Source of the DNA: Sphingomonas sp. URHD0057
GTDB taxonomy: Bacteria; Pseudomonadota; Alphaproteobacteria; Sphingomonadales; Sphingomonadaceae
DNA: 64,000 bases
Assembly: GCF_000620665.1 (NCBI RefSeq)
Contig: NZ_KK211162.1
Coordinates: 124,001-188,000 of the forward strand
Direction of reading: 5' to 3'
Shown piece by piece: positions 12,092 to 62,158 of this stretch. Within the stretch, counting starts at the first letter, position 1. Each line of letters opens with the position of its first letter. Position numbers and translations under genes: made by a program. Under the pieces are notes generated by a model. That model searched no databases. It worked only from the letters and a program-made list of their open reading frames with translations, and was not told the DNA's origin.

Positions 12092-12165
12092 GGCCCGATG
12101 GCGGAGTGGTTACGCAGAGGACTGCAAATCCTTGCACGCCGGTTCGATTCCGGCTCGGGCCTCCA
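12092..12165 (+). tRNA. tRNA-Cys (GCA)
   Basis: A 74-base cloverleaf with CCA encoded. The acceptor stem pairs GGCCCGA with TCGGGCC, U is the discriminator, and CCA occupies 12163-12165. The D arm is GGCGGAGTGGTTACGC. The anticodon stem GAGGA/UCCUU closes the loop CTGCAAA with anticodon GCA. The T arm is GCCGGTTCGATTCCGGC. It sits in a 381-base gap between the pcm-like gene (start 11931) and the convergent end of the ATP-grasp gene (12313). Confidence 0.97.
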
Positions 12166-40907: not shown

Positions 40908-40984
40908 GACCCCGTAGCTCAGCAGGATAGAGCATCAGATTCCTAATCTGAGGGCCACAGGTTCGAATCCTGTCGGGGTCACCA
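40908..40984 (+). tRNA. tRNA-Arg (CCU)
   Basis: A 77-base cloverleaf with encoded CCA. The acceptor is GACCCCG with CGGGGTC, discriminator A, and CCA at 40982-40984. The D arm is GCTCAGCAGGATAGAGC. The anticodon stem TCAGA/TCTGA closes the loop TTCCTAA, giving anticodon CCU, which reads AGG. The T arm is ACAGGTTCGAATCCTGT. It lies between the DUF1178 and DUF6356 genes. Confidence 0.97.
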
Positions 40985-52250: not shown

Positions 52251-53654
52251 TCAGGCCGAATGGGTTTCGGCCATTCGCGCGATCAGCTCCCTTGCGAAAT
52301 CGATCAGCGTGTCGTCGCGGGCGCCCATGATGACAATGCGGTCGCCCGGCCTCGCTTCCGCAACGAGCGCGTCGGCGATCGCCGCGCGGTCCGGGATGTG
52401 TTCGGCCTGCCGTTCGGCGCCATTGACCTGCTCGGCCAGCCAGTCGGAACCGCGCGTCCGCTCGACCGTGCCGCCGTGGTAGACGGGGTCGGGCAGGTAC
52501 AACCGATCGTCCGGCGCCATTCCTGTCGCGAAGCTTCGGGCGAGCTCGTCGCCCATCTTGGCCAGCGGGCCATAGCCATGCGGCTGGAACATGATGAGGA
52601 GACGGCCCGGCTGCGCGCGCAGGGTTGAGAGCGTCGCGTCGATCTTGTCGGGATTGTGCGCGAAATCGTCGATCACGGTGACGTCGCCCGCTTCGCCGAC
52701 CGTCTCCAGCCGCCGGCGAAGGCCTTCGAAGCGTCCCAGTGCCGCGACCGCATCCTCGATGCGGACGCCGAGCACGCCCGCCGCGGCGATGGCCGCGAGG
52801 GCGTTGGATGCGTTGTGGCGGCCAGGCATCGCGAGCCGGACGTCGTACCGTTCGCCCTCCGCCTCGAGCGCAAAGGTTGCGCCGCCGGCTTCGAGCTGGA
52901 GGTCCTTGCCCATGAAATCCGCGCCGGGGCTGTCGAAGCCATAGCTGAGCCGGTGATCCGCCGGAACCACGTCGGCCATCGCCCGGGTTTCGGGATCGTC
53001 GAGGTTCACCACCGCTTTGCGGGCTCGCAGCAGAAAGGCGGCGAACAGGCTGCGCAACTCGGCCATTTCCTTGTGATCGAGGCTGATGTTGGTGAGCACC
53101 GCGACCTCGGGTTTGTAGAGCGTTATCGAACCGTCGCTCTCGTCGACCTCGCTGACGAACAGCTCGGGATCGCCGACCAGCGCGCTGGCGAATGGCGCGG
53201 ACGGCGTCACGAAATTCTTCATCACCGCGCCGTTCATGACCGTCGGCTGGCGGTGGCAGGCATGGAGGATCCAGCCGATCATCCCGGTGACCGTCGACTT
53301 GCCGCTGGTCCCGCCGACCGCGACACTGCGCTGGGCGGAGTTGAGCAACCTCGCGAGGAACTCCGGGCGGGCGAGGTGGCTAAGGCCGAGCTCTTTGGCG
53401 CGAACGACGTCCGGCACGGTGGGCTCGACCGCGGCCGAGGTGACCAGGGTCATTCCCTCCTGCAGACCCGACCCGTCCTGGGGGAACAGCTGAATGCCGA
53501 GCGAGCGCAGATAGTCGAACTTTTCGGGCGTGCGCCCGGCGTCGAGCGAGCGGTCGGAGCCCGATACCTTGGCCCCGCCGGCGCGGACGATGGACGCGAG
53601 CGGAAGCATCCCGCTGCCGCCGATGCCGCTGAAGAAAACCGGAGAATCGATCAT
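52251..53654 (-). CDS. Mur ligase of the MurC/Mpl type
   Basis: 467 aa. The N-terminal UDP-binding domain starts FFSGIGGSGMLPLASIV, the ATP loop is VAVGGTSGKSTVTGMIGWIL, and the central domain has SEVDESDGSITLYKPEVAVL followed by TNISLDHKEM. The C-terminal domain carries VIDDFAHNPDKIDATL. The sequence lies between MurC (UDP-MurNAc--L-Ala ligase) and Mpl (murein tripeptide recycling ligase). It is away from the dcw cell-division cluster, so a second, recycling-type enzyme is more likely than the essential MurC. This is inference. A D-aminoacylase homologue is encoded next to it. Confidence 0.82.
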   Translation of the reverse strand: MIDSPVFFSGIGGSGMLPLASIVRAGGAKVSGSDRSLDAGRTPEKFDYLRSLGIQLFPQDGSGLQEGMTLVTSAAVEPTVPDVVRAKELGLSHLARPEFLARLLNSAQRSVAVGGTSGKSTVTGMIGWILHACHRQPTVMNGAVMKNFVTPSAPFASALVGDPELFVSEVDESDGSITLYKPEVAVLTNISLDHKEMAELRSLFAAFLLRARKAVVNLDDPETRAMADVVPADHRLSYGFDSPGADFMGKDLQLEAGGATFALEAEGERYDVRLAMPGRHNASNALAAIAAAGVLGVRIEDAVAALGRFEGLRRRLETVGEAGDVTVIDDFAHNPDKIDATLSTLRAQPGRLLIMFQPHGYGPLAKMGDELARSFATGMAPDDRLYLPDPVYHGGTVERTRGSDWLAEQVNGAERQAEHIPDRAAIADALVAEARPGDRIVIMGARDDTLIDFARELIARMAETHSA

Positions 53655-55721: not shown

Positions 55722-57737
55722 ATGCGTTTTGATTTTCGCAGACTGCTGCGCGGCGGGCGTGAATTCCTGGGTGAAGTCGGGATAATCCTGCTCGGGGCGC
55801 TACTCCTGTCGCCGGCACCGGCGCATTCGTTCGGCGCCTCGCCAGCCGCGTCGCGCTGGCCACTGGCGCAAGCACGAAACCCCGCAGCCCGGAATGCCGC
55901 TGCGGACGAAGCGTTGATTGCGCGGATCGTCGCCGGGATGACACTCGAGCAAAAAGTCGGGCAGATGACCCAGCCCAACATCTGGTCGGTCACTCCGGAC
56001 GATGTCCGGCGCTATTGTCTCGGATCGATCCTCAATGGCGGCGGTGCCTGGCCCGGCAACCGCAAGGACGCGGGCGTTGCCGACTGGCTCGCGCTGTCGC
56101 AGCGGTTCTACGACGCGTCGATGTCGACCGACATGCCGGTCAAGATCCCGATCATCTGGGGCACCGACGCGGTCCACGGCCACAACAATATCTATGGCGC
56201 GACGCTTTTCCCGCACAACATCGGGCTCGGCGCGGCGCATGATCCGGCGTTGCTGACGCGCATCGGCCACGCCACCGCGCGGGCAGTCCGGGCGACCGGG
56301 ATCACCTGGGTGTTCGCGCCGGCGGTTGCGGTGGCGGAGAATCCGCGTTGGGGCCGGACCTACGAAAGCTATTCGTCAGACCCCGCGCTCGTCCGTTCCT
56401 ACGCCGACGCGATCGTTCGCGGCTTGCAAGGCGACCTCAAGGGCGGCGACGACGTGCTTGCGACCCCCAAGGTATGGATCGGGGACGGCGCCACCTTCCA
56501 CGGCAAGGAGCAGGGCGAGATCCGCGCGTCGGAAGCCCACCTGATCCGCATCCAGGCTGCAGGCTTCTATGGCGCGCTCAAGGGCGGCGCGCAGACGGTG
56601 ATGGCGTCCTATGCCAGCTGGACCGACACCGCCACCAACCGGCCCTGGGGCAAGACGCACGGCAACCGCTACCTCCTCACCGACGTGCTCAAGCAGCGCC
56701 TCGGCTTCGACGGTTTCGTGGTGTCCGACTGGAACGGCATCGAGCAGATTCCCGGCTGCACCAAGGCGCATTGCCCGCAGGCGATCAACGCCGGGATCGA
56801 CCTGGTCATGGTTCCCGACGACTGGAAGGCGTTCATCGGCGAGACCGCAGCCGACGTTCGCAGCGGCGCGATCCCGATGGCCCGGATCGACGATGCGGTG
56901 TCCCGCATCGTGCGCGCCAAGCTGCGCAGCGGCCTATTCGACGGGTCGCCAGCCACGGGTCCCCATCCGGGCGCATCGGCCATCGGCGATGCGGCGTCGC
57001 GCGCGCTCGCCCGCGAGGCCGTGCGAAAGTCGCTGGTGCTGCTCAAGAATGAGCGGCGCGCGCTGCCGCTTTCGAGAAGCGGTCGGGTGTTAGTGGTCGG
57101 TGCCGGCGCGGACCGCATGTCGGACCAGACTGGCGGCTGGTCACTGACATGGCAAGGGAACGACAACAGCAACGCGGATTTCCCGAACGGCGAGACGATT
57201 CTCGGCGCGATCCGCAGCACGCTCGGGACCGGCCAGGTCGATTACAGCCCCGACGGCAAAGGCGTGGACCCCAGCCGCTATCGCGCGATCGTCGCGGTCG
57301 CGGCGGAAGGCGCTTATGCCGAGGGTGACGGCGACATCGGCTTCCCGGCGACGATGCGCCACAGTGCGCGCTATCCCGCCGATCTCGCCGCGCTCGACCG
57401 CGTCGCGGGCAAGGGCGTGCCGGTGGTCACCATCCTCCTGTCCGGACGCCCGGTGTCGGCCAACGACCTCATCAACCGGTCCGATGCATTCATTGCCGCC
57501 TGGCTCCCGGGCACCGAGGGCCAAGGAATTGCCGACCTCCTGTTCGCGGCACGCAACGGCCGGCCGGCTTATGACTTCAGCGGCCGGCTCTCGTTCGACT
57601 GGCCGGCAGGCGACTGCCTGCGCCGCGGCGCAGTCCAGTTCCGGCGCGGGTACGGGCTCAGCTATCGTCGCTCGGCACGGATCGGGCGGCTCCCCGTCGG
57701 ACCCGCCATCGCGAATTGTCCGCCCGACACAGACTAG
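55722..57737 (+). CDS. Secreted glycoside hydrolase family 3 (beta-glucosidase/exo-glucanase type)
   Basis: 671 aa. A hydrophobic N-terminal segment (GEVGIILLGALLLSPAPAHS) is a signal or anchor. The GH3 N-domain contains AGMTLEQKVGQMTQPNIW, IWGTDAVHGHNNIYGATLFP and the nucleophile in GFDGFVVSDWNGIEQIPG. The C-domain ends with RRGYGLSYRR, as in two-domain ExoI-like enzymes. The normally conserved substrate-binding KHF/KHW reads ATPKVWIGDGATF, so a histidine is replaced by valine. It should remove glucose units from beta-glucans, perhaps products of the GH5 enzyme at 7.5 kb. It stands alone. Confidence 0.9.
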   Translation: MRFDFRRLLRGGREFLGEVGIILLGALLLSPAPAHSFGASPAASRWPLAQARNPAARNAAADEALIARIVAGMTLEQKVGQMTQPNIWSVTPDDVRRYCLGSILNGGGAWPGNRKDAGVADWLALSQRFYDASMSTDMPVKIPIIWGTDAVHGHNNIYGATLFPHNIGLGAAHDPALLTRIGHATARAVRATGITWVFAPAVAVAENPRWGRTYESYSSDPALVRSYADAIVRGLQGDLKGGDDVLATPKVWIGDGATFHGKEQGEIRASEAHLIRIQAAGFYGALKGGAQTVMASYASWTDTATNRPWGKTHGNRYLLTDVLKQRLGFDGFVVSDWNGIEQIPGCTKAHCPQAINAGIDLVMVPDDWKAFIGETAADVRSGAIPMARIDDAVSRIVRAKLRSGLFDGSPATGPHPGASAIGDAASRALAREAVRKSLVLLKNERRALPLSRSGRVLVVGAGADRMSDQTGGWSLTWQGNDNSNADFPNGETILGAIRSTLGTGQVDYSPDGKGVDPSRYRAIVAVAAEGAYAEGDGDIGFPATMRHSARYPADLAALDRVAGKGVPVVTILLSGRPVSANDLINRSDAFIAAWLPGTEGQGIADLLFAARNGRPAYDFSGRLSFDWPAGDCLRRGAVQFRRGYGLSYRRSARIGRLPVGPAIANCPPDTD

Positions 57738-58434: not shown

Positions 58435-58464
58435 AATGTCCGCCCTCCGCCCATTGCGGACATT
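58435..58464. repeat. Palindromic intergenic repeat (AATGTCCGC...GCGGACATT), perfect copy
   Basis: Perfect nine-base arms AATGTCCGC and GCGGACATT flank CCTCCGCCCATT. It ends 31 bases before the Lgt-like start, so it may form a hairpin in the 5' leader of the operon. Confidence 0.8.
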
Positions 58465-58495
58465 GCGGCCGTCGTTGCACAGCTGTCGCGACCGA

Positions 58496-59221
58496 ATGAT
58501 CCACGTACCGACTAACCCGGCCGCGCATTATGCCGGCGACCTTGCCGCCTGGGCCGCGGCGGCGCTCGCCGCGCGCTGGCAGCACAACAAATGGCCGGAG
58601 CAGGCGCTGCGGTTCTCGCGGATTACCCGGCCGAGCTATTTCGTCGCGCTCGGAGTTGGGGCGTTGCTCGGCGCGTGGCTGTTCGGATCGGCCAATTCGC
58701 TGCGGGCGCCGATCATCGCGCCGTCGCACAGCATCGCCGGAGCACTCGCCGGCGGGATCGTCGCTGTGGAGCTGTGGAAGGCGCTGCACGGCGTGCGTGC
58801 CTCGACGGGCGGAGCGCTGGTGCTGCCGATCTGCGTCGGGATCACGGTCGGCCGTCTCGGCTGCTTCTTCGCCGGGCTGCCCGACTACACCTACGGCATT
58901 CCGAGCGGCGTGCCGTGGGCGGTCGAGCTTGGCGACGGCATCGGCCGGCATCCGGTCCAGCTCTACGAATCGCTGGCGATGGCGGGGTTCCTCGCCGTCT
59001 ATCTCCGCGCCCGTCTGAACGGCGCGCGATGGGCGCGCGACCACGCTTTCCACGCGATGATTATCTTCTATGCTTGCCAGCGGTTCGGGTGGGAATTCTT
59101 GAAGCCGTACCCGGCGGTGCTCGGGCCGCTGAACGTGTTCCATCTTCTGATGCTGGGGCTGGCTGCGTATGGATTACTCTGGTGGCGGAGAGGCGGCGCA
59201 ATCGAGCGCGGCGCCGCCTGA
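58496..59221 (+). CDS. Prolipoprotein diacylglyceryl transferase (Lgt) paralogue
   Basis: 241 aa from the ATG at 58496; no strong ribosome-binding site is seen. About six membrane helices. The Lgt core is recognisable as GRLGCFFAGLPDYTYGIPSG and GIGRHPVQLYESLAMAGFL, matching the family's GR-x2-CF-x-AG and RHPxQLYE blocks; the HSIAGALAGGIVAVEL helix corresponds to the region before them. True Lgt moves diacylglycerol from phosphatidylglycerol to a lipoprotein cysteine in the inner membrane. This shorter copy is probably a paralogue with a specialised acceptor. It overlaps the radical SAM gene by 53 bases. Confidence 0.82.
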   Translation: MIHVPTNPAAHYAGDLAAWAAAALAARWQHNKWPEQALRFSRITRPSYFVALGVGALLGAWLFGSANSLRAPIIAPSHSIAGALAGGIVAVELWKALHGVRASTGGALVLPICVGITVGRLGCFFAGLPDYTYGIPSGVPWAVELGDGIGRHPVQLYESLAMAGFLAVYLRARLNGARWARDHAFHAMIIFYACQRFGWEFLKPYPAVLGPLNVFHLLMLGLAAYGLLWWRRGGAIERGAA

Positions 59222-60638
59222 GCAACCGCAGCGCAAGTCGGCCCACTATCTGTTCCACGGCCAGACCACGAGCTTGTGCGAAACTTGCCTCGATCTCGTC
59301 CCGGCCAAGGTCATCGTCGAGGACGACAAAGTCTTCTACTTGAAGCGCTGCCGCGACCATGGCGTGCAGAAAACGCTGATCAGCGACGACCTCGATTACT
59401 GGCGTGCGCAGAAGGAGTGGCTCAAGCCCGGCGACCGGCCGCTGACGACACAAACCCGGACCGAGGCCGGCTGTCCGTTCGATTGCGGCCTCTGCCCCGA
59501 TCACGAGCAGCACAGCTGTCTTGCGATCATCGAGATCAACCAGGCATGCAACCTCGCTTGCCCGGTGTGCTTCGCCAACGCGACCGACATCCATGGCAGC
59601 CACCGGCCGCTGGCGGAGATCGAGCGCATGCTCGATGCTTTGGTGGCGAGCGAGGGAGAGCCCGACCTCGTGCAGCTGTCGGGCGGCGAGCCGACGATCC
59701 ATCCGGATTTCTTCGAAATTCTCGACGCGGTGAAGCGGCGGCCGATCCGCCATGTGATGATCAACACCAACGGCGTGCGGATTGCGCAGGATCCGGAGTT
59801 CGTTGCTCGGCTGGCGAGCTATGCGCCGCGGTTGGAAGTCTATCTGCAGTTCGACTCCATGAACGACGAGGCACTGCTCGAGCTGCGCGGCGCGAGGCTC
59901 AACCGGATCCGTCGGCAGGCGCTCGAGGCGCTCGAAGCGGTCGGGCTTTCGACGACCCTAGTGGTTGTCGTGAAGCGCGGGGTCAACGACCAGGAGATCG
60001 CCGACATCGTGCGCGAGGCACTCAACTGGGCTTGCGTGCGTGGGGTGACCTTCCAGCCGGTGCAGGACGCCGGGCGCAATGAAGGCTTCGACGCGCAGGC
60101 CAACCGGGTGCTGCTGACCCAGATCCGGCTCGAGGTCGGCAAGTCGGGGGTGTTCGCGACCGAGGACATGATCCCGCTGCCGTGCAACCCGGATCAGATC
60201 TCCATCGGCTATGGCCTACGGCAGGGAAGAGAGGTCACGCCGCTGACGCACCTGCTGCCGAAGGAGCTGATCCTCAACGGCCCGAACACGATCAGCTACG
60301 AGGCCTATCCGGAGCTGAAGGCGAAGATATTGGACCTGCTCTCCCTGGCGACGGCGCAGGCCAACACCGAGGAGAAGCTCGCCGGACTCCTGTGCTGCCT
60401 GCCGCAGGCGATGGTGCCGGAGGAATTGAGCTACGCGAACAGCTTTCGCGTCGTGATCCTGCAATTCCTCGACCGCTACAATTTCGACATCGCGACGGTG
60501 AAGCGAAGCTGCGTTCACTTCGTGACGGGGGACGGGCAGATCATCCCGTTCGACACCTACAACACGTTCTATCGCGAGGGCGCCGAGGGCGCGGGAGTCC
60601 TTGCCCGCCACCGCGCGACAGTGAACCAGCGCGGATGA
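59169..60638 (+). CDS. Radical SAM protein of the MJ0619/tetraether-lipid-synthase-like type
   Basis: 489 aa. The start is the only ATG available, deep inside the previous gene. An N-terminal Cys-rich module (LCETCLDLVPAKVIVEDD, then RCRDHG) and GCPFDCGLCPDHEQHSC precede the radical SAM motif NQACNLACPVCFAN (CxxxCxxC). SGGEPTIHPDF and a typical partial barrel follow, and more cysteines (PLPCNPD, LLCCLPQ) come later. This order is characteristic of the MJ0619 family, whose archaeal members make tetraether lipids by joining lipid tails. Bacterial members are uncharacterised. With an Lgt paralogue upstream, a lipid or lipoprotein substrate is plausible. Confidence 0.85.
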   Translation: MDYSGGGEAAQSSAAPPEQPQRKSAHYLFHGQTTSLCETCLDLVPAKVIVEDDKVFYLKRCRDHGVQKTLISDDLDYWRAQKEWLKPGDRPLTTQTRTEAGCPFDCGLCPDHEQHSCLAIIEINQACNLACPVCFANATDIHGSHRPLAEIERMLDALVASEGEPDLVQLSGGEPTIHPDFFEILDAVKRRPIRHVMINTNGVRIAQDPEFVARLASYAPRLEVYLQFDSMNDEALLELRGARLNRIRRQALEALEAVGLSTTLVVVVKRGVNDQEIADIVREALNWACVRGVTFQPVQDAGRNEGFDAQANRVLLTQIRLEVGKSGVFATEDMIPLPCNPDQISIGYGLRQGREVTPLTHLLPKELILNGPNTISYEAYPELKAKILDLLSLATAQANTEEKLAGLLCCLPQAMVPEELSYANSFRVVILQFLDRYNFDIATVKRSCVHFVTGDGQIIPFDTYNTFYREGAEGAGVLARHRATVNQRG

Positions 60639-60877
60639 AGGATATCTTCGGAGGGGTTTTGGTCGCGACCGGTATTCTGCTCGCCGGGGGGAGCGGACTG
60701 TGTTCGATGGTCGTGCTGTTCACTCCGGGCGAATACTCGGGTCTGAAAATGTGGCAGGCCGTCGCTGTATTCGGTGGCGTCCCATTCGCGATTGGACTGG
60801 TGATCGCGTTTGGCGGGATTGCTCTTGTGCGCAGCGCGAGGGCCGCCGAGAGCCATGATGCCGAGAGCGCCGAATGA
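60635..60877 (+). CDS. Two-helix membrane mini-protein, paralogue 1
   Basis: 80 aa. It begins MKDIFGGVLVATGILLAGGS then GLC, followed by a second helix (AVFGGVPFAIGLVIAFGGIA) and a charged tail. The start overlaps the radical SAM stop (ATGA). It shares with the next two genes a MK-x-[IL]FGG start, an AG-x-[ST]-GLC motif with Cys at residue 23, and GG[VI]PF-x-IG. No known family is recognised. It is the first of three tandem copies. Confidence 0.82.
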   Translation: MKDIFGGVLVATGILLAGGSGLCSMVVLFTPGEYSGLKMWQAVAVFGGVPFAIGLVIAFGGIALVRSARAAESHDAESAE

Positions 60878-61110
60878 AGCAATTGTTCGGGGGATGTCTG
60901 CTCGCGGTTGGAATTTTGATCGCGGGCGTCAGCGGGCTGTGTTCCATCGGGTTGCTGATGAACGGCATCGTGACCGATCCGCTTGGCGCGATCGGCGCCA
61001 TTCTGTTCTACGGCGGCATCCCGTTCGCGATCGGCGTCGGCCTGGTGATCGTTGGTCAGCGCACGATCCGCAGCGCGCGCGACGAGGATTACGGAGCGGG
61101 GCGCGAATGA
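60874..61110 (+). CDS. Two-helix membrane mini-protein, paralogue 2
   Basis: 78 aa. MKQLFGGCLLAVGILIAGVS then GLC, and a second helix (YGGIPFAIGVGLVIVGQRTI). It keeps the invariant Cys 23 and adds a Cys at residue 8 that is also present in paralogue 3. Both ends overlap neighbouring genes as ATGA, so it is translated in a coupled series. The small charged C-terminal tail (RSARDEDYGAGRE) is probably cytosolic. Confidence 0.82.
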   Translation: MKQLFGGCLLAVGILIAGVSGLCSIGLLMNGIVTDPLGAIGAILFYGGIPFAIGVGLVIVGQRTIRSARDEDYGAGRE

Positions 61111-61325
61111 AGGAGTTGTTCGGCGGGTGCCTGCTGGCGGTGGGCATATTGGTTGCCGGAGCGACCGGGCTGTGCATGTCCATGTTCTTCAGCGGACCCA
61201 ATGGGTGGAAGAGTCTCGCCCAGGCCTTCAACTTTCTGGGCGTTCCGTTCCTGATCGGGATCGGGATGGTGGTCGGCGGCGCCGCCCTGATCCGCAGCGG
61301 GCGCCAGGACAGGTATCGCAAATGA
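61107..61325 (+). CDS. Two-helix membrane mini-protein, paralogue 3
   Basis: 72 aa. MKELFGGCLLAVGILVAGAT then GLC, and FLGVPFLIGIGMVVGGAALI. Cys 8 and Cys 23 match paralogue 2. The start overlaps the preceding stop as ATGA, and its own stop overlaps the LD-carboxypeptidase start. It is closer to paralogue 2 than to paralogue 1, as expected from successive tandem duplications. Confidence 0.82.
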   Translation: MKELFGGCLLAVGILVAGATGLCMSMFFSGPNGWKSLAQAFNFLGVPFLIGIGMVVGGAALIRSGRQDRYRK

Positions 61326-62158
61326 GCAAAATGCGCATCGCCGTCGTCGCGCCGAGCTGCCCGCTCAAGCGCGAAGCTGCCGAGGCGGTCGAAGCCCTCG
61401 TCACGGAGCGCGGCGATTGCGATCTGGCCATCCACCCGCAATGTTTCTTGTCCGACGGCCATTTCGCCGGGCCGGACGAGGCACGGCTCGCGGCTCTGCG
61501 CGAGGTCATGGCCGATCCGTCAGTCGACGCCGTGTGGTTCGCGCGCGGCGGCTACGGGTCCAACCGCATCGCCGAAGCGGCATTGGCGGGAATGCCCGAC
61601 GCCGCGAGCGGCAAGCTCTACATGGGATATAGCGACGCCGGCTTCCTGCTCGCCGGACTCCACAAGGCGGGCCTCGAGGTCGCCTGGGGGCCGATGCCGC
61701 AAGACATCTTGCGCGGCAATCACGGTCTCGGCGACGGCGAGGCCGCGGTTCGCCGCGCGCTGGATTGGCTGGTGGCGAGAAATGAGTCAGCCGTCGAGCC
61801 GCAGCTCCAGCGGCCGGCGATGGCATTCAACTTGACGGTCCTTTCGAACCTGCTCGGGACCCCGCTGGAGCCGGACTTCGCCGGCGTCGAGCTGATCATC
61901 GAGGAGGTGAGCGAACAGCTCTACCGGATCGATCGCACGATGTTCCACGTCACAGCCAGCAACAACGTGCGCGGTGCGGCGCGGATCCGGCTTGGCCGGG
62001 TCGGCGACATCATCGACAATGACCCCGATTTCGGCGCCGACGAGGTGGCCATTGTCAGCGACTGGTGCACTCGCTCGGGCATCCCCTACGGCGGGCGGGC
62101 GGACATCGGTCACGATGCGCAAAACCGCGTCGTGCCGTTCGGCCTGCGCACTTCTTGA
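61322..62158 (+). CDS. LD-carboxypeptidase (S66 family)
   Basis: 278 aa from the ATG at 61322, overlapping the previous stop. It cleaves the bond before D-Ala in murein tetrapeptides, a step in peptidoglycan recycling. RIAVVAPSCPLKREA opens the fold. The nucleophilic Ser is in YMGYSDAGFLLAGL, Glu in LIIEEVSEQLYRID and His in GGRADIGHDAQNRVVPFG; all three triad residues are present. No signal peptide is seen, so it is probably cytosolic. It ends the six-gene operon with the Lgt-like and radical SAM enzymes. Confidence 0.88.
   Translation: MSKMRIAVVAPSCPLKREAAEAVEALVTERGDCDLAIHPQCFLSDGHFAGPDEARLAALREVMADPSVDAVWFARGGYGSNRIAEAALAGMPDAASGKLYMGYSDAGFLLAGLHKAGLEVAWGPMPQDILRGNHGLGDGEAAVRRALDWLVARNESAVEPQLQRPAMAFNLTVLSNLLGTPLEPDFAGVELIIEEVSEQLYRIDRTMFHVTASNNVRGAARIRLGRVGDIIDNDPDFGADEVAIVSDWCTRSGIPYGGRADIGHDAQNRVVPFGLRTS

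Follow-up and report, generated by a model that had tools for sequence, protein, structure and literature searches.

A co-conserved bacterial gene module joins a divergent Lgt-family paralogue and a Tes-like radical SAM protein to cysteine-bearing mini-proteins

Two enzymes provide the closest described points of reference for the locus reported here. In Escherichia coli Lgt, R143 and R239 are placed at the transfer site, E151 is described as binding phosphatidylglycerol in a first site and is proposed to act as a selection filter, and variants at H103, R143 and E151 are reported to be inactive (PMC4728403). GDGT-MAS, the radical S-adenosylmethionine (SAM) tetraether synthase also referred to as Tes (MJ0619), carries a rubredoxin motif of the form C-x2-C-x20-C-x2-H, has lipid pockets and acts on free lipids, and its C-terminal cluster is proposed to store a lipid radical; passages of the same source give Met439 and Tyr459 as fully conserved in 1,000 archaeal homologues, neither having proved essential (PMC9433317). 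Its passages on homologues in bacteria leave their reactions open (PMC9433317), and other sources propose branched tetraethers as the products of bacterial Tes homologues (PMC11868695, PMC8941075). Here we analyse a 64,000-nucleotide stretch of the 2.79 Mb genome of Sphingomonas sp. URHD0057 (hereafter the window), in which relatives of both enzymes are encoded by overlapping genes together with three short membrane proteins, the mini-proteins. Sequence comparison indicates that these three families belong to one conserved module, which we read, with a probability of about 0.5, as a dedicated pathway that would place a modified lipid on the mini-protein cysteine.

The five genes at 58496-61325 of the window, all on the plus strand, are one copy of a three-family module that contains one to three mini-proteins. 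An Lgt-family paralogue of 241 residues (58496-59221) comes first and overlaps by 53 nucleotides the gene for a Tes-fold radical SAM protein of 489 residues (59169-60638). Mini-proteins 1, 2 and 3, of 80, 78 and 72 residues, follow at 60635-60877, 60874-61110 and 61107-61325, and are overlapped in turn by an LD-carboxypeptidase of family S66 (61322-62158, plus strand). The four junctions after the first are of the ATGA type, at 60635, 60874, 61107 and 61322. A first-pass annotation, made from the window alone, had described this arrangement as a six-gene operon. Reading of the open reading frames (ORFs) confirms the six overlapping plus-strand genes, and conservation extends to the first five, leaving the LD-carboxypeptidase outside. 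The longest ORF at the Lgt paralogue, 58436-59221, opens at an earlier ATG, some other ORFs likewise have earlier in-frame starts, and the start codon of the radical SAM protein is uncertain. Scans of the locus for promoters and terminators gave background levels only, base composition showed no clear step at the module, and phage records held no match for it.

A scan of named genomes returned at least 558 relatives of the radical SAM protein, of which the best 80 were kept. With 11 loci from other searches this gave 91 loci, corresponding to 89 groups at 99.5% radical SAM identity, 51 at 90% and 27 at 80%, two pairs merging at the first of these levels (L066 with L136, and L071 with L073). 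Host names include Sphingomonas, Novosphingobium, Caulobacter, Phenylobacterium, Reyranella, Bradyrhizobium, Rhodoplanes and Tabrizicola, among others, and three of the loci (L130-L132) come from another class of the phylum. The closest named relative among the matches listed is from a Sphingomicrobium metagenome-assembled genome (MAG), at 88%. Two loci (L047 and L103) are labelled as Planctomycetes MAGs; their proteins are 77% and 63% identical to that of the window, and we take them to be mis-binned contigs and count no occurrence in Planctomycetota.

An Lgt-type gene stands beside the radical SAM gene in 90 of the 91 loci, always on the same strand (90/90). The distance is below 400 nucleotides in all but seven loci, where it is within about 1.1 kb, and the sole miss (L109) is a stretch that begins at a contig edge. 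A stop-to-stop profile search found one or more mini-proteins in 90 of the 91 loci (the miss being L114), a count that is not independent and is partly circular because these very loci had served to train the profile. Two controls address this circularity, namely the absence of off-site matches and a search of 59 whole genomes. All 131 matches at E<1e-3 lie on the same strand as the radical SAM gene, from 2.7 kb before it to 3.2 kb after it, and none was found farther off or on the opposite strand in the fetched stretches (3.7 to 19.5 kb). One mini-protein copy is present in 54 loci, two in 31 and three in five, and the stop of the radical SAM gene overlaps the start of the first mini-protein in ATGA fashion at 58 of 88 loci. 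Other searches recovered fewer loci (65/87 at E<1e-2, 63/87 at E<1e-3, and 55/91), because they missed mini-protein frames whose opening lies upstream, within the radical SAM gene, and the counts used here are those of the stop-to-stop search. In a recurrence count over 60 loci, with most Bradyrhizobium left out and frames of at least 100 residues considered, no further gene family recurred in more than nine loci besides the two enzymes and two sets of opposite-strand frames, which overlap the enzyme genes in the examples printed.

Whole genomes give a similar picture. Among 99 genomes of the family, a radical SAM orthologue (E<1e-200) is present in two, the window genome (G000) and G020, and 48 further genomes have weak matches, the best at 7e-11. 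In 59 family genomes (G000-G058), two hold all three parts and 57 hold none, bar weak partial mini-protein matches. Strong mini-protein matches are confined to G000 (three) and G020 (one), as is a low-scoring second PF01790 protein; the second PF01790 matches elsewhere are a full-scoring Lgt in G023 and a split Lgt in G007. The module is patchy at higher ranks, occurring in 6 of 385 genomes of the class (E<=1e-30) and 12 of 398 of the phylum (E<=1e-40), and in 13 of 40 within the genus of G456, taken to be Bradyrhizobium. Two genomes with radical SAM proteins about 30% identical to that of the window have the trio in a different order.

These comparisons of gene content indicate that the cysteine-bearing mini-proteins make up, with the radical SAM protein and the Lgt paralogue, one co-conserved, co-oriented and often translationally coupled unit. 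Conservation of the gene order beyond this genome, on which the first-pass annotation had staked its proposal, is borne out by the neighbourhood analysis. That unrelated genes overlap here through ordinary packing is scarcely credible: it does appear to account for the LD-carboxypeptidase, but for the first five genes chance is refuted by their conservation (90 of 91 loci) and by the way they are present or absent together across the 59 genomes.

The trio is also found on replicons of other phyla. Of nine records returned by a search of plasmids, four have the trio, from Persicobacter psychrovividus (Bacteroidota), Mycobacterium branderi, M. avium and Nonomuraea gerenzanensis, the last a replicon of 11.9 Mb that is filed as a plasmid. 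Judged from these sequence matches, the trio occurs in Bacteroidota and Actinomycetota as well, and so in three phyla. The small proteins of these other phyla are built differently, with G-x-C at the end of the last hydrophobic helix as assessed by eye (...VIGTGICGSLLS; ...SGGLCTGLNP...; ...AGICTGINP...). In the remaining five records, from M. vanbaalenii (Mycolicibacterium) and four haloarchaea (L147, L148, L153-L155), a methyltransferase gene adjoins the radical SAM gene, and no Lgt appears in the gene table, which is itself incomplete. A tree that includes one partial Tes sequence separates 26 trio proteins from the five methyltransferase-linked proteins plus Tes (support 99/92), a split that we treat as tentative because the tree has long branches.

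Two loci show additional genes. In L133 (3438-5653), from a small genome of the class whose radical SAM protein is one of the two about 30% identical to that of the window, the gene after the trio belongs to PF04140 (ICMT, the isoprenylcysteine carboxyl methyltransferase family), which may be a further pointer to chemistry on cysteine or lipid. L132 (3842-5653), from another class, has the order mini-protein, Lgt-type protein, Sel1-repeat protein and radical SAM protein, and its Sel1-repeat protein starts like a lipoprotein (GGTGC).

The three window mini-proteins match no Pfam family above cut-off in a Pfam scan. Each has Cys23 late in helix 1, in agreement with the first-pass description of a cysteine next to a membrane helix, within S-G-L-C in mini-proteins 1 and 2 and T-G-L-C in mini-protein 3; mini-proteins 2 and 3 have an extra Cys8. 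Across the loci, the cysteine is present in all 131 matched stretches and is preceded by G at -2 in 120, the commonest motifs being PGLC (30) and SGLC (22). In an alignment of 34 mini-proteins the mean column identity is 28% and a single column, the cysteine, is invariant. Such a cysteine, kept amid divergent sequence, is the pattern that substrates would show if their enzyme recognised only a short site. The lipobox rule calls for A, G or S just before the cysteine, and this -1 position is L in all three window mini-proteins and in PGLC and SGLC, which thus depart from the rule; some other loci have G, A or S there. Because K and R are commoner in the flanks than in the loop (126 of 131 mini-proteins, in stop-to-stop frames with predicted topology), the cysteine is predicted to lie on the periplasmic side, at the end of the outgoing helix, where an Lgt-type enzyme could reach it.

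The protein at 58496-59221 is, on profile evidence, an Lgt-family paralogue and not the housekeeping Lgt. Its PF01790 score of 58.6 bits clears the cut-off of 24.9 and its NCBIfam lgt scores are far below theirs (22.5 against 334, and 15.5 against 118.9). A separate housekeeping Lgt is encoded elsewhere in the genome (G000:C4) and scores 262.9 bits against 57.7 for the paralogue, so the identity assigned in the first pass holds. Its structural model is confident, with a predicted local distance difference test (pLDDT) score of 94.1. We compared 50 paralogues, residue by residue, with E. coli Lgt and the genome's own Lgt. E. coli residues R143 (49 of 50), E202 (49), Y235 (50), R239 (50) and E243 (49) are kept, the window protein having R120, E158, Y192, R196 and E200, and the R246 position is K in 47. 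No paralogue has Glu in the column of E151, a residue of the Lgt signature motif, and Asp lies close by in 46, one residue earlier in most. A clear loss of the donor filter was considered and is weakened by this neighbouring Asp. On these residue comparisons the paralogue resembles either a transferase whose donor or acceptor site has changed or an enzyme that carries out new chemistry.

The N146 position, also in the signature motif, is Cys in all 50 paralogues (C123 in the window), and this residue might form a covalent intermediate or pair with the mini-protein cysteine. The same invariance would suit a redox or metal role, in which the mini-protein cysteine would pair with Cys123 or coordinate a metal, the module serving to sense damaged lipids or to repair them. 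We regard such a role as very unlikely, given that 25 of 75 mini-protein frames have a single cysteine, leaving no internal disulfide or multi-cysteine site there, and that no redox partner gene recurs among the 60 loci.

The radical SAM protein (59169-60638) matches the Pfam Radical_SAM family and the zinc-ribbon domain PF23545, and its cysteines form rubredoxin-like, N-auxiliary, radical SAM (RS) and C-terminal sets. The N-terminal Cys-rich module, the second CxxxCxxC-x7-C motif and the SAM motif order noted in the first pass are found at C37-x2-C40-x20-C61-x2-H64, C102-x3-C106-x2-C109-x7-C117 and C127-x3-C131-x2-C134. GDGT-MAS is the best sequence match in the PDB (1.1e-65), and the predicted model aligns with 7TOL and 7TOM at template modelling (TM) scores of 0.73-0.74 over 491-502 columns (0.73 over 491 for 7TOL), other folds scoring 0.37 or less in the rows shown. 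Strict membership of either Tes or TrsS is rejected because both score cut-offs are missed: 278.3 against 450 bits for the Tes model NF045702, and 304.6 against 490 for the TrsS model NF045646, the best NCBIfam match. The proposed likeness to MJ0619 and tetraether synthases stands for the fold and the nearest solved structure and fails for strict Tes membership. Clustering with enzymes of known unrelated function, which had been named as an outcome that would tell against the idea, is not seen, the nearest structure being GDGT-MAS.

The rubredoxin, N-auxiliary and RS motifs are present in 35 of 35 proteins of one alignment (A5) and in seven others of Pseudomonadota and Bacteroidota. The rubredoxin motif is found in all aligned trio proteins, and the N-auxiliary set is lost in the two actinobacterial trios aligned. 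At the position of Met439 the 35 A5 proteins have V (20), S (9), L (4), M (1) or I (1), the window protein having L and that of Persicobacter M; the Tyr459 position is F in all 35. C339, C409, C410 and C448 are invariant in A5. The C-terminal cluster may be held differently from that of GDGT-MAS, because Met439 and Tyr459 are mostly replaced and extra cysteines are invariant.

Small, divergent, tandem cysteine-bearing genes beside a radical SAM gene also resemble the precursors of ribosomally synthesised and post-translationally modified peptides (RiPPs). In a RiPP-like maturation, the radical SAM enzyme would modify the mini-protein through a thioether or C-C cross-link at or near the cysteine, and the Lgt-type enzyme would lipidate it or act as its membrane chaperone. 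Peptide-maturase models, however, match the radical SAM core only. Peptide maturases such as SkfB and SuiB reach a TM of about 0.36, compared with 0.73 for the lipid enzyme, and the cysteine is predicted to lie across the membrane, which makes this route quite improbable in our judgement.

For the proposed lipidation pathway, we infer the following steps. The mini-proteins would be its dedicated substrates. The radical SAM enzyme might, before or after the Lgt-type enzyme acts, modify the terminus of an acyl tail that it reaches from the cytoplasm, through C-C coupling or another C-H functionalisation, and the Lgt-type enzyme would move a glyceryl lipid onto the mini-protein cysteine, from a donor that is perhaps not plain phosphatidylglycerol. 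The lipidated mini-protein may stay in the membrane uncleaved, because most mini-protein sites lack a lipobox.

Several observations weigh against this pathway, in addition to the partial circularity of the mini-protein count. The -1 residue is bulky at many mini-protein sites, which sets them apart from lipoboxes, and weak half-length mini-protein matches (E 1e-3 to 6e-3) appear in three of the 59 genomes (G021, G034 and G051). The radical SAM enzyme, predicted to be cytoplasmic, and the cysteine, predicted to be periplasmic, face opposite sides of the membrane. The radical SAM model has a pLDDT of 75.5 and is poor over residues 371-420. A Foldseek search of the PDB with the paralogue model returned nothing at E<0.001, even though the PDB sequence set includes 5AZB, and a profile of the Lgt-type family against the PDB gave two chance-level matches only; the homology to Lgt rests on the Pfam profile. 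A changed donor is not secured, because the nearby Asp may replace E151. None of the 50 paralogues has His at the H103 position of the HGGL motif (22 have one three positions earlier), and because H103 is essential in E. coli, the paralogue may not be a diacylglyceryl transferase. The case as a whole is built on sequence and structure prediction, from which the chemistry is inferred.

The missing H103 would also fit a scheme in which the joint product of the two enzymes is an unusual membrane lipid that stays free, the mini-proteins are accessory subunits that tether the soluble radical SAM enzyme to the membrane or present lipid to it, and the cysteine serves assembly instead of lipidation. 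GDGT-MAS itself is described as acting on free lipids and as having homologues in bacteria not known for biphytanyl chains (PMC9433317), and bacterial homologues have been proposed to make membrane-spanning lipids (PMC8941075). This scheme leaves unexplained why a cysteine with G at -2 is kept while sequence and helix count vary between phyla, and why an Lgt-family protein is nearly always present; we consider it possible but unlikely. The lipidation pathway can also be taken further, to membrane-spanning lipoproteins in at least three phyla. The Tes-fold radical SAM enzyme would then join the ends of acyl tails into a bola-type or otherwise tail-modified glycerolipid, to be put on the G-x-C cysteine by an Lgt paralogue with an altered donor site, giving a protein staple that crosses the bilayer, an elaboration that we rate as rather improbable.

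The LD-carboxypeptidase, which the first-pass annotation took to tie the unit to the cell wall, is an overlapping neighbour outside the conserved module. It is an ordinary S66 protein (PF02016 at 77.2 bits, PF17676 at 53.4 bits) and the sole S66 gene of its genome. No close homologue was found in the fetched stretches of the other 90 loci (tblastn, E<=1e-3). Of 38 further genomes of the family, 22 carry a close homologue (E<=1e-30), and so does G077, a genome of the same genus. The same order of LD-carboxypeptidase, SWIB and NUDIX genes stands in G077, which has no radical SAM match. A PF02016 search (E<=1e-5) of twelve other trio genomes found no S66 in seven, one or two elsewhere in each of G020, G675, G466 and G625, and three in G297 (the genome of L133), one of these at L133:811-1902, on the other strand and about 4 kb from the radical SAM gene. 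The lack of a close homologue near the other 90 loci, the S66-free trio genomes and the order kept in G077 lead us to reject it as a member of the unit, and the proposed link to the cell wall finds no support.

Because the LD-carboxypeptidase-SWIB-NUDIX order exists in G077 without the radical SAM gene, the trio seems to be set beside an older chromosomal neighbourhood. A Mur ligase family protein (52251-53654, minus strand), a GH3 glycoside hydrolase (55722-57737, plus strand) and the LD-carboxypeptidase lie within 10 kb, and these three genes could represent a region for cell-wall recycling, with the trio inserted next to it. Elsewhere in the window, tRNA-Cys and tRNA-Arg genes lie at 12092-12165 and 40908-40984.

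In the open full-text literature, with most subscription papers and preprints outside that scope, we found no title or abstract that describes a gene pairing between an Lgt-family protein and a Tes-like radical SAM protein; PMC8939145, one of a few papers with both kinds of term, deals in its passages with other systems. What appears to be new is the gene system, the two enzymes being divergent representatives of known superfamilies. The module looks like an undescribed way to put an unusual lipid on a protein. It gives one bacterial Tes-like branch a testable setting, with fixed partners, apparent substrates and cultured host species, for example Novosphingobium nitrogenifigens DSM 19370 (L048) and Caulobacter sp. 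BK020 (L056). If the proposal is true, it would add a new route of protein lipidation and would warn against taking metagenomic Tes-like genes as evidence of tetraether producers.

Set against known systems, the mini-proteins resemble bacterial lipoproteins of the Lgt-Lsp route in their positive N-terminus, hydrophobic helix and cysteine near its outer end, but many of their sites lack a lipobox and a second transmembrane helix follows the cysteine. The paralogue shares with Lgt (5AZB) the PF01790 match and the kept R143, E202, Y235, R239 and E243, and differs in having Cys at N146, no His at H103, no Glu at E151 and scores under the equivalog cut-offs. The TrsS radical SAM (seleno)protein model gives the window protein its best NCBIfam score, yet far under the cut-off, and the two that were scored of the five methyltransferase-linked plasmid homologues (335.5 and 352.5) are also under 490. 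The bacterial membrane-spanning lipid synthase Mss, likened here by description only, also couples lipid tails; its models are superposed on Tes in a 2026 paper (PMC13274423), and it is treated as distinct from Tes (PMC11868695, PMC13274423). With GDGT-MAS/Tes (MJ0619; 7TOL, 7TOM) the radical SAM protein has in common the fold, the rubredoxin motif, the N-cluster C-x3-C-x2-C plus His and the RS motif C-x3-C-x2-C. It departs from that enzyme in its score below cut-off, in the mostly changed Met439 and Tyr459 and the invariant C339, C409 and C410, and in its bacterial host, where its gene partners are an Lgt-type enzyme and mini-proteins.

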